From an uncultured Fidelibacterota bacterium (GTDB taxonomy: Bacteria > Fidelibacterota > Marinisomatia > Marinisomatales > Marinisomataceae), in assembly GCA_902578385.1 (NCBI GenBank), contig CACHCR010000004.1, forward strand, positions 47,501-104,940: a stretch of DNA of 57,440 nt, in the 5' to 3' direction. Position numbers and translations under genes: made by a program. Positions 47,067 through 49,606 of this stretch are shown piece by piece. Position 1 is the first letter of the stretch. Each line of letters opens with the position of its first letter. The notes under the pieces are model-generated. The model was not told the origin of the DNA, made no database searches, and saw only the letters and a program-made list of their open reading frames with translations.

Positions 47067-47546
47067 ATGGCAACTTTGATTTTAAAAGAAACGCATGTGG
47101 CTTTAGAGGAAGAAATTAAATCACTTGAAAAGCTTAAAAGAGAAACATCTGAAAAAATTAGTGAAGCAGCAGATCATGGCGATTTAAAGGAAAATGCAGA
47201 ATATCATGCTGCTAGAGAAAAACAAAGCCTTATTGTATATAAAATTCAATTAATGCAATCACATGCTCCATTTAGAATAATTGAACATGGAGATATTAAC
47301 ATAGATCAGGCTGGTTTTGGTAACAAAGTTGCAATTCAAGAAGAAGGAAAAGATAAGCCAGAAGATTATTATATCTTAGGACCAATTGAAGAGGAATTAG
47401 ATTTATACCCTTTCATTGTAACTTATCATTCTCCATTTGGAAGAGAGGTTTCAGGAAAGAAAGTTGGAGAAAGTTTTACACTGGATATTAGAGGTGAAGA
47501 GGTTAAGTTTACCGTTAATTCAATTGATAAAATTTCTTCGGAGTAA
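47067..47546 (+). CDS. greA: transcription elongation factor GreA
   Basis: GreA rescues backtracked RNA polymerase by stimulating cleavage of the nascent transcript. The 159-residue protein has the N-terminal coiled coil with the acidic tip DLKENAEYHAAREKQS, and the C-terminal FKBP-like domain with SPFGREVSGKKVGESF. An AAGGAA ribosome site lies 6 bases before the ATG. The 78 bases upstream probably hold its own promoter. Its end faces the minus-strand unit at 47553 with only 6 bases between. Confidence 0.96.
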   Translation: MATLILKETHVALEEEIKSLEKLKRETSEKISEAADHGDLKENAEYHAAREKQSLIVYKIQLMQSHAPFRIIEHGDINIDQAGFGNKVAIQEEGKDKPEDYYILGPIEEELDLYPFIVTYHSPFGREVSGKKVGESFTLDIRGEEVKFTVNSIDKISSE

Positions 47547-47552
47547 AGATTT

Positions 47553-47666
47553 TTAATTACCTGCAAATCTTGTCCCGAAAATCCCTACGCCAAGTTCAGC
47601 CCAAATAAGAAATAGAATTATAATAATGATTGATATAATTATTTTTTTATATAGGCTTGAAAACAT
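47553..47666 (-). CDS. 37-residue single-helix membrane protein
   Basis: This tiny gene encodes a predicted inner-membrane peptide: a short basic start (MFSSLYKK), one strongly hydrophobic helix (about residues 9-25) and a conserved-looking tail AELGVGIFGTRFAGN. The ATG at 47666 lies inside the last codons of the upstream gene (20-base overlap), and the sequence GAAGGA sits just before it as a ribosome site. An in-frame ATG at 47744 would add 26 residues lying in the other gene. I believe similar short helix-plus-tail proteins occur in FCB genomes but cannot verify it. Function is unknown. Confidence 0.62.
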   Translation of the reverse strand: MFSSLYKKIIISIIIIILFLIWAELGVGIFGTRFAGN

Positions 47667-48525
47667 TTTTTCCTTCGAATAATTTTGTGCCATTAACATA
47701 GCTATAATATTTTCTGCATTCGCAGGATAAATATTCAATATCAATAGGTTGAAATTTTCGCTTAGCTTCTGGCCAGTACTCTTTTTGTAATTCGATCATC
47801 TTTTCACATGTTTCTTGATGATTTTTTAAACCTAAATATTTTTGTAATCTATCAAGATAGGCTACTGCTCCAATTCCTGTAGGAACACGGCTATTTGGAT
47901 ATATAATATCTGGTCTAAACCACGCTAAGTCTATAACTGCCATAAAAATAGGAAAGTCATTTTGCATTTTAAATTCAGAGTTTATTCCAATTGTTGCTGT
48001 AATTACATCACCTTCAGCATTTTTTACCATATCTGCTAGAGATTCTTTGATATCCAAAAATAATGTTACTGCCGTATCAAATCTTGAATATTTAATTCCT
48101 TTCCAATTTACTGCTTCAACCGGATATGCGTTAAGATTGCACCAATTTTCTAAAGATTTTAATTTTTTAGATAATTTTTCTGGTTTTAGCAGAATATCAG
48201 GAGATAATTCATCTAATGTTTCTTGCCTATTGCACCATCGAGCGAAGAACAAAGCCTGAATTAACAATGGAATATCATCCTTTAATTCTCGAGCAAAGCC
48301 TAATATTGATTTACTTGTACGATCATCTTCTCTAAAAACATTCAAGAATCGTCCTTTTTGAAATATTTGATCTTTTGTCCAAGGAGAGGGATAAGCTTTT
48401 TCTCTTAATCGACGAATATTTTCTCTTTCTTTACAAAAATTAAAAAAAGCCTCCACCGGATTATTTAATTTTAATCCATCTAGTGATTTTGCATATGGAT
48501 TATTCACAATTTTACTTTCTTGCAT
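47647..48525 (-). CDS. protein resembling the HMUDK/aGPT-PPlase helical domain (thymine-hypermodification type)
   Basis: This 292-residue soluble protein is Trp/Arg/Cys-rich and has no signal or membrane helix. Its N-terminal third, RENIRRLREKAYPSPWTKD then FQKGRFLNVFREDDRTSK and ARWCNRQETLDEL, strongly recalls the helical domain of 5-hmdU DNA kinases and alpha-glutamyl/putrescinyl-thymine pyrophosphorylases, which phages use to hypermodify thymine. Later Cys and Trp residues (WCNL, YLSCECRKYY) could form a site. It overlaps the permease gene by 14 bases and the small membrane gene by 20. Eight of 16 Arg codons are CGN, against 1 of 13 in the adjacent permease. This suggests transfer. The family link comes from memory and needs a profile search. 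Confidence 0.55.
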   Translation of the reverse strand: MQESKIVNNPYAKSLDGLKLNNPVEAFFNFCKERENIRRLREKAYPSPWTKDQIFQKGRFLNVFREDDRTSKSILGFARELKDDIPLLIQALFFARWCNRQETLDELSPDILLKPEKLSKKLKSLENWCNLNAYPVEAVNWKGIKYSRFDTAVTLFLDIKESLADMVKNAEGDVITATIGINSEFKMQNDFPIFMAVIDLAWFRPDIIYPNSRVPTGIGAVAYLDRLQKYLGLKNHQETCEKMIELQKEYWPEAKRKFQPIDIEYLSCECRKYYSYVNGTKLFEGKNVFKPI

Positions 48526-49606
48526 TAAGCATAAGATAAGTTCCTATTCCAATAAATACAAAATTAGACATCCAAGCTCCTAAAAATGGAGTCAATACAC
48601 CTCCATAAGCTAAAGATTGACCAAACTTTAGTAGAATTACATAAGAAAATATGGTTGCTAAACTCAAGCCTCCCCCAAAAGCTAAAGTTGTGTTTGATCT
48701 ATAAACTGAAAGAGGAATTCCACAAAAAATTACTATAATCGAAATAAATGAATATGCAATTTTGTAGTTTAGATCAACTTCCCATCTTAAAGTATTAACA
48801 CCATTGTTTTTTAACGACTGTATTTGTTTTTTAAGTTCTAAATATGATACTTCTTCCGAAGAACTAGCTGTATTTATGATATCTTTTGGAGAAAAATTCA
48901 AATATATTAGTGAGTCATTTTTTGAAATGACAACGTTTTTCTCTAAACCATTATTATCAAAATTTCTTATAGAAAAATCTTTTAAATTCCATTTATTAAT
49001 TTCTGTATCCCAAATAGCTTTTTTTGAATCTATTCTTCTTAAAAGCATTCCATTTTCTACTTCAATAAAATTTAAATTAACAGCAACATTATTATTACTG
49101 TTGAACTTTTCTAATGCAATTAAATCTTTTTGGTTTTTTTGAAAATATACATTTTCAAATACACTTTTATCTCTTATTCTATTCTTATTTTTTGACATAT
49201 ATAAAGACTTAATACTATTCTTTTTTTTGTTATTTTCGATAACAATAGAATTATCAAAATAAAATGATCCAACGCTCAATAAAAATCCAAATAATAAGAC
49301 AGGTATAGAAAGTCTATACAAGCTTAAACCAGAAGATTTCAAAACTAGCCACTCTTTTCTTTGAATCATCATTCCATAGGTGAATACTGACGAAACAAGA
49401 CATGATACAGGTATTGTTACACTTACCATTGAGGGTAGAGATGCTCTATAATACTCTAGTAGAGTATTATATGAAACTTGATTATCTATAAAGCGATTTA
49501 AGTTTTCAAATACATCTACAATTAATGATATAAGAGTAAAGAATATAGAAACTATAATAAAAGTAGTTAGAAATTCTCTGAGAATATAATAGTCAATTTT
49601 TTTCAT
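48512..49606 (-). CDS. LptF/LptG-family lipopolysaccharide export permease
   Basis: This is an inner-membrane permease subunit of the Lpt exporter that moves LPS toward the outer membrane. The 364-residue protein has the YjgP/YjgQ layout: two or three N-terminal helices starting MKKIDYYILREFL, a large periplasmic jellyroll region (about residues 125-270) and three C-terminal helices. The early YYRASLPSMVSVTIPVSCLV is typical. Only one of the two paralogues lies here, and F versus G cannot be told. It heads a minus-strand unit whose downstream genes overlap it. Confidence 0.88.
   Translation of the reverse strand: MKKIDYYILREFLTTFIIVSIFFTLISLIVDVFENLNRFIDNQVSYNTLLEYYRASLPSMVSVTIPVSCLVSSVFTYGMMIQRKEWLVLKSSGLSLYRLSIPVLLFGFLLSVGSFYFDNSIVIENNKKKNSIKSLYMSKNKNRIRDKSVFENVYFQKNQKDLIALEKFNSNNNVAVNLNFIEVENGMLLRRIDSKKAIWDTEINKWNLKDFSIRNFDNNGLEKNVVISKNDSLIYLNFSPKDIINTASSSEEVSYLELKKQIQSLKNNGVNTLRWEVDLNYKIAYSFISIIVIFCGIPLSVYRSNTTLAFGGGLSLATIFSYVILLKFGQSLAYGGVLTPFLGAWMSNFVFIGIGTYLMLNARK

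Follow-up and report, generated by a model that had tools for sequence, protein, structure and literature searches.

The HMUDK_hel module of phages has a P-loop kinase as its working partner, which phosphorylates 5-hmdU residues of DNA. Proteins acting on bases are also used in defense: the DNA glycosylase Brig1 is a known anti-phage defense (PMC11078745) and Brig2, as cited in PMC13160076, acts against modified thymines. A 5-hydroxymethyluracil kinase domain has been validated in a defense system, and aGPT-Pplase is predicted to be defensive (PMC13092281). Here, we describe HEL, a stand-alone protein of the HMUDK_hel family, encoded in a DNA stretch of 57,440 nucleotides (the whole of which is called the window) from a host genome of 0.95 Mb that is 76% complete. 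HEL has in common with the PF18723 phage proteins a full-length profile match, a predicted fold, and an invariant core. It differs from them in forming its own deep clade, in having neither fused nor adjacent kinase, in its GIG turn, and in its chromosomal location in two phyla. Its likeness to Brig1, Brig2, and Brig3 would be the idea of recognizing modified bases in phage DNA, but Brig1 and Brig3 are UDG-superfamily proteins, unlike the HEL family.

The Pfam-A search gave PF18723 HMUDK_hel (5-hmdU DNA kinase, helical domain) as the sole match of HEL, with a score of 71.3 bits (curated cut-off, 25 bits) and E=1.2e-19, covering residues 23-273 of the protein and positions 4-272 of the 281 of the profile. 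HEL also matched PHROG 2396, whose function is unknown (E=3.5e-21), and tblastn retrieved 81 phage records, mostly from Pseudomonas phages. Membership of HEL in the HMUDK_hel family is therefore firm. The original prediction, made by reading the sequence, had compared the N-terminal third of the protein with both HMUDK and aGPT-PPlase helical domains, and had named a profile search as a check. That search was significant for HMUDK_hel and supports the prediction; the match spans the whole protein and is not restricted to its N-terminal third. HEL has no match to PF18724, the Pfam ADDT (aGPT-Pplase2) model. An ADDT identity was rejected on the same ground. The HMUDK_hel member of phage SN1 still bears the older label aGPT-Pplase1, and the SN1 protein labeled aGPT-Pplase2 scores as Pfam ADDT. 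The view of the gene as thymine-hypermodification-like needs a further correction. HEL itself showed no P-loop kinase domain in the Pfam search; it lacks the kinase portion of a 5-hmdU DNA kinase, and therefore a complete hypermodification enzyme is absent. The Pfam search gave no match to PF00730 (HhH-GPD), NCBIfam and PADLOC gave nothing convincing, the PDB sequence search with either HEL or a phage profile yielded chance-like matches only, and the plasmid collection contained one weak partial match only. Because HEL falls in a known family and a single Pfam scan suffices to find the match, it is not categorically new. The kinase-less, chromosomal, near-core subfamily in two ocean bacterial groups is new as far as the sources searched show, and no description of it was found in the literature searched, most subscription literature lying outside that search.

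Table 1. Features of the HEL locus, in window coordinates
Feature	Position	Strand	Basis or remark
HEL, HMUDK_hel-family protein, 292 aa, stand-alone	48525..47647	-	Pfam PF18723 and AF2 model
lptF/G-type permease gene	48512..49606	-	named from sequence
greA-like gene	47067..47546	+	converges on HEL
37-aa single-pass membrane ORF	47553..47666	-	overlaps HEL 3' end
Motif 1, residues 48-69 (PWTKDQIFQKGRFLNVFREDDR)	48319..48384	-	P48 W49 D52 F60 N62 R65 D68 conserved, phage and bacterial
Motif 2, residues 96-99 (RWCN)	48229..48240	-	R96 and N99 nearly invariant, phage and bacterial
Residues 189-206 (NDFPIFMAVIDLAWFRPD), candidate helix-hairpin-helix and Asp segment	47908..47961	-	alignment, weak hhalign
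Residues 214-220 (VPTGIGA), counterpart of phage GPG(A/S)xRGL turn	47866..47886	-	103-sequence alignment
Motif 4, residues 268-273 (CECRKY)	47707..47724	-	C268 E269 K272 Y273 conserved in both groups

The HEL ORF opens with ATG, and its predicted position and length proved exact (Table 1), as did the cited motifs, which are found at residues 48-52 (PWTKD), 55-71 (FQKGRFLNVFREDDRTS), and 95-107 (ARWCNRQETLDEL). The gene order is pckA and greA, facing HEL, lptF, an AGCS transporter, and onward. The housekeeping chromosomal setting announced for the gene was borne out by these neighbors, no phage genes being apparent near HEL in the window, and the flanking LptF/G permease gene and tiny membrane ORF are as described. 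The final 14 nt of the upstream lptF/G-type gene overlap the HEL start, for which reason the two genes are probably co-transcribed. Canonical LexA box patterns were absent near the window HEL gene. The membrane ORF, of 37 codons, lies downstream of HEL and is followed by greA; its C-terminus is WAELGVGIFGTRFAGN and it gave E=0.038 with Pfam DUF7248, under that model's cut-off. Copies 84-90% identical were found in two relatives (L065 and L086), and it was missing beside HEL in the other congeners checked. Since most HEL-bearing relatives do without it, we rejected it as a HEL partner.

We aligned 103 sequences, 64 viral and 39 bacterial. Residues R34, W49, D52, F60, R65, D68, R96, F191, D199, G217, G219, C268, E269, and K272 were conserved in 98-100% of the viral and at least 95% of the bacterial sequences; P48 was likewise kept across both sets, and N62, N99, Y134, and Y273 were mostly kept. 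In the segment 189-206, F191 and D199 are invariant and the phage counterpart reads GxFMA...D...APD; D206 may be a catalytic-type Asp, if this segment is rightly equated with glycosylase residues. The bacterial clade has its own features, with GIG in place of phage GPG, loss of the RGL that follows the turn, N189/D190 at the phage G-x position, and many clade-specific invariant residues. In HEL, 85 of the 292 positions are conserved at 95% or more, and pN/pS was 0.14-0.31 in eight within-genus and several outside pairs. Selection on HEL is purifying. As the core residues are kept and clade-specific invariant residues are found besides, bacterial HEL is a distinct, constrained subfamily and not a decaying remnant.

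The AlphaFold2 model of the window HEL was confident, with a pLDDT of 91 and a pTM of 0.86. Searched with Foldseek against BFVD, it matched proteins of SP10, phiRSL1, and PhiW-14 with a probability of 1.00, the SP10 5-hmdU DNA kinase being among them, and with a TMq of 0.68-0.69 for the best two. This agrees with the fold expected from the original prediction, namely that of phage 5-hmdU DNA kinase helical domains. Matches to the PDB were non-significant, the plausible ones being PUGT (a phage glycinyltransferase), Qng1 (an enzyme of queuine salvage), and AGOG (an 8-oxoguanine glycosylase from archaea). PUGT and Qng1 have a DNA-glycosylase-like fold in common. PUGT (gp46 of PaMx11, 8z2m), the highest-probability PDB match, showed weak fold likeness (TM 0.30); it belongs to ADDT (PF18724), a family set apart from HEL by its catalysis (amino acid:DNA transferase). 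We also modeled a phage HEL, from a 49-sequence alignment, and this second model reached a pLDDT of 93. Its first PDB match was the 8-oxoguanine glycosylase (Ogg) of M. jannaschii (3knt; probability 0.80-0.82, TM 0.52-0.53 by target), accompanied by T. maritima Ogg (3n0u; TM 0.54 by target), MUTYH, Qng1, PUGT, and clostridial Ogg, such that all eight PDB matches with a probability above 0.1 fell in the glycosylase-like group. Foldseek E-values of the HEL-family models to glycosylases were about 0.9 and above, so that single matches are weak; because they agree with each other, an HhH-GPD-type, DNA-glycosylase-like fold is likely from these models. Profile comparisons by hhalign were non-significant against Nth and MutY and also against ADDT (P 0.013), with which the C-terminal motif is colinear. 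The best, weak alignment to Nth placed NDFPIFMA opposite the hairpin LPGVGxxTA, which would make residues 189-206 a hairpin with a candidate Asp. HEL likely has the overall fold of HhH-GPD glycosylases (archaeal and Thermotoga Ogg, MutY, AGOG), from which it differs in that it escapes sequence-level detection, has no evident counterpart of the catalytic Lys of bifunctional glycosylases, and carries the extra conserved PW, FREDD, and CExxKY motifs.

Phage and bacterial loci differ in their partner genes. Among 75 viral HEL contigs, a TS-like gene was nearby in 61, a recognized P-loop kinase in at least 18, and an ADDT gene in 8; SN1 and Lucjan are phages with the kinase encoded by a separate gene adjoining HEL. 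None of these three partners was found at some 40 bacterial HEL loci of the plankton clade. A genome-wide profile search with PF18748 found no kinase in 26 HEL-bearing plankton genomes, under conditions in which the SN1 kinase was detected (E=1.8e-19). PF18748 does not detect all partners, as it misses a P-loop and HEL fusion in the non-plankton genome G481, and partner detection is incomplete to that extent. The phage-type TS (dUMP hydroxymethylase) was absent from the 18 HEL-bearing plankton genomes tested, 13 of which were without any PF00303, and ThyA in the window's own genus is canonical (336-347 bits vs 64-88 for phage-type enzymes). With kinase and phage-type TS found neither at the loci nor genome-wide, these bacteria lack, by the searches used, the pathway that surrounds the module in phages. 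Other bacterial HMUDK_hel proteins (e.g., L294-L301, from non-plankton members of the Actinomarina class) belong to the same Pfam family and also lie on chromosomal contigs, but they are of the canonical form, with 299-375 bits and ORFs of about 350-600 aa, vs about 46-88 bits for the plankton clade. One of them, L294 (G481:C20), is the 561-aa P-loop and HMUDK_hel fusion and has a TS-like gene as its neighbor; the pair is a candidate 5-hmdU system, whether chromosomal or carried by a prophage.

HEL scored above the Pfam cut-off in 38 of 245 Marinimicrobia genomes, as a single copy in each, and in 35 of 42 Actinomarinales genomes; it is near-core in the latter, whose streamlined genomes measure about 1 Mb. 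The closest named loci are from Marinimicrobia (81% and 77% identical), which assigns the window to Candidatus Marinimicrobia (SAR406), and HEL of Candidatus Actinomarina is 60-61% identical to that of the window. HEL-bearing relatives in the window's genus keep the greA/lptF position. In genomes G004, G006, G007, G010, G012, G013, G018, and G015, which have no HEL, greA and lptF abut, a few bases apart, and likewise in the more distant G003 and G009; at least seven of the sister genomes without HEL had no visible replacement between greA and lptF. This shows that HEL is dispensable and comes or goes cleanly as one piece. An apparent degraded copy in G003 (E=9e-4, with stops) was taken as spurious, as the window protein had no tblastn match there. 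In L033 (G001:C2), many frameshifts were seen in HEL, lptF, pckA, and other housekeeping genes; since lptF is also affected, we rejected them as a pseudogene signal, and they look like assembly errors.

In the order's other families, HEL was found at different sites, flanked by kbl- and tdh-like genes, next to an NADH:flavin oxidoreductase or a sulfatase, or elsewhere (several neighbor names being assigned by reading of the sequence), with no consistent partner gene in the loci examined. Identity does not track families: the f5 copy (L071, from genome G027) is 70-71% identical to the window HEL, as congeners are, and in the tree it joins an f7 copy on a fully supported node. With phages as outgroup, the Actinomarina clade was nested among Marinimicrobia sequences with moderate support, and the whole plankton clade sat on a long branch, deeply separated from the phage HMUDK_hel members. 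Because identity is not bound to family and Actinomarina is nested in Marinimicrobia, these sequences show horizontal transfer of HEL between marine plankton lineages. A contig labeled Pelagibacteraceae (L024, CAJXBA010000050.1) carries HEL and an adjoining helicase gene that match the Marinimicrobia G027 locus, and it is probably misbinned.

Three HEL sites were found among the 24 distinct Actinomarinales genomes examined. In eight genomes, HEL lies 34 nt behind umuC (PF00817/PF11799/DUF4113, IMS), with a divergent umuD encoding an S24 peptidase. In 13 genomes, one of them cut by a contig end that leaves just the part from the small ORF on, HEL ends a run of carA-carB-pyrF-pyrD-like genes and a small PRTase-like ORF; the reading frames overlap and the small ORF carries the PRPP-binding motif LLIADDVYTTGTSM. 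This ORF (e.g., L276:5027-5413) encodes 118-129 aa without a Pfam match and is possibly a minimal orotate phosphoribosyltransferase. In the remaining three genomes, HEL follows an ABC transporter operon (Bmp, ABC, and two BPD_transp_2). At the umuC-HEL promoters, canonical LexA box patterns were absent, and a conserved 18-bp palindrome, GAATAGTGTACAGTATTC, was found in the umuD-umuC promoter (about 4666-4683 in L028, for instance). Each of the five genomes searched had a single perfect copy, in every case at umuDC. As it is also present where HEL sits elsewhere, we rejected it as a HEL element; it belongs to umuDC. HEL follows umuC behind this palindrome-bearing promoter, and for this reason it is probably co-regulated there with the DNA-damage polymerase. 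The N-terminus of the umuD-like protein is extended by a basic stretch, which suggests a self-regulating, non-canonical SOS-type repressor. Besides, a PNP_UDP_1 phosphorylase adjoins HEL in G027. The umuC and pyr linkages point to DNA or pyrimidine chemistry, though not uniformly, and they may be incidental, since neighbors vary by lineage (kbl-tdh, lptF, ABC transporters).

As HEL has spread between two ocean groups, with some copies in DNA-repair or pyrimidine operons, it is probably a DNA-base-handling enzyme. Our best, though tentative, explanation is that HEL is a base-flipping, HhH-GPD-type DNA protein that serves host DNA maintenance and recognizes, perhaps excises, 5-hmU-type thymine lesions. 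A role in host DNA maintenance is suggested by the loss of kinase and hydroxymethyl-dUMP synthase while the conserved core is kept. HEL would bind DNA and recognize a base derived from thymine after flipping it from the helix, the expected substrate being 5-hydroxymethyluracil or another, related uracil substituted at position 5. The phage module would present 5-hmdU to the kinase; in Marinimicrobia and Actinomarinales, 5-hmdU would come only from thymine oxidation or from infecting phages. HEL may then recognize and perhaps excise oxidized thymine, with processing of the abasic site or translesion synthesis downstream. Base flipping, substrate, excision, and repair role are what we infer, and the position behind umuC favors damage handling. 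HEL as a stand-in for a missing glycosylase was rejected: UDG and Nth/MutY-type glycosylases were present in all genomes tested, with or without HEL, so that it fills no gap in base excision repair. The UDGs themselves vary. In the window's genus, most members encode a divergent UDG-superfamily protein of about 268 aa (60-76 bits; G000:C5:49339-49803 and congeners), and canonical UDGs of about 225 aa (116-141 bits) are found in G003 and G009, congeners without HEL, and in most other families.

A different possibility was that HEL is an anti-phage sensor or effector for 5-hmdU-derived bases in marine phage DNA, with a Brig-like logic and domesticated from phage hypermodification genes. Its core residues are the same as in phage proteins, its presence is patchy with clean loss and with transfer between families and phyla, and both glycosylases and a 5-hydroxymethyluracil kinase domain have precedents in defense, as noted above. 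However, PADLOC gave no match, no defense genes were noted beside any HEL locus examined, and near-core status in Actinomarinales and slow evolution do not fit well; we find this role unlikely, and the option of a defense component in the original prediction received no direct support. Nor does HEL have to act on DNA. It could be a nucleotide-pool or pyrimidine enzyme for the salvage or hydrolysis of a free or RNA-borne modified uracil nucleotide, comparable to Qng1 for queuosine. The position at the end of the carAB-pyrFD operon with its overlapping PRPP-binding ORF, the phosphorylase neighbor in G027, and the presence of Qng1, a nucleoside glycosylase, among the fold matches would all suit such an enzyme, which we nonetheless deem quite unlikely given that phage members sit with DNA-level modification genes, that HEL is linked to umuC, and that Marinimicrobia HEL lacks a consistent metabolic partner.

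That HEL is a non-catalytic remnant, retained for DNA binding or regulation and spread because the gene is neutral or of slight use, strikes us as decidedly unlikely: the polar core is kept, pN/pS is low, and the gene persists in streamlined genomes of about 1 Mb, even if the kinase partner is lost, many relatives do without HEL, and places invariant in phages have changed (GPG to GIG, RGL lost). Finally, HEL might be a host 5-hmdU DNA kinase acting with an unrecognized cellular P-loop kinase, in which case host DNA would carry modified thymine. The separate kinase genes of SN1 and Lucjan and the fusion missed by PF18748 in G481 leave some room for it, but the lack of phage-type dUMP hydroxymethylase in the 18 plankton genomes, and of any kinase or TS adjoining plankton-clade HEL, renders it highly improbable.

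Returning to a base-recognizing DNA protein for host DNA maintenance, its boldest form would make HEL the founder of a new family of stand-alone enzymes for thymine lesions of the 5-hydroxymethyluracil type, either DNA glycosylases or repair enzymes that flip bases. Such a family would be widespread in two abundant plankton groups, and the base-recognition module of phage 5-hmdU DNA kinases would be its source or its descendant; put in these terms, we consider the proposal rather doubtful. If HEL did recognize 5-hydroxymethyluracil-type bases alone, the role of the helical part in the phage 5-hmdU DNA kinases would be revealed. If true, it would also tie the HMUDK_hel family to the DNA-glycosylase fold and point to an unrecognized function, in DNA maintenance or phage sensing, in ocean bacteria that are abundant and have streamlined genomes.
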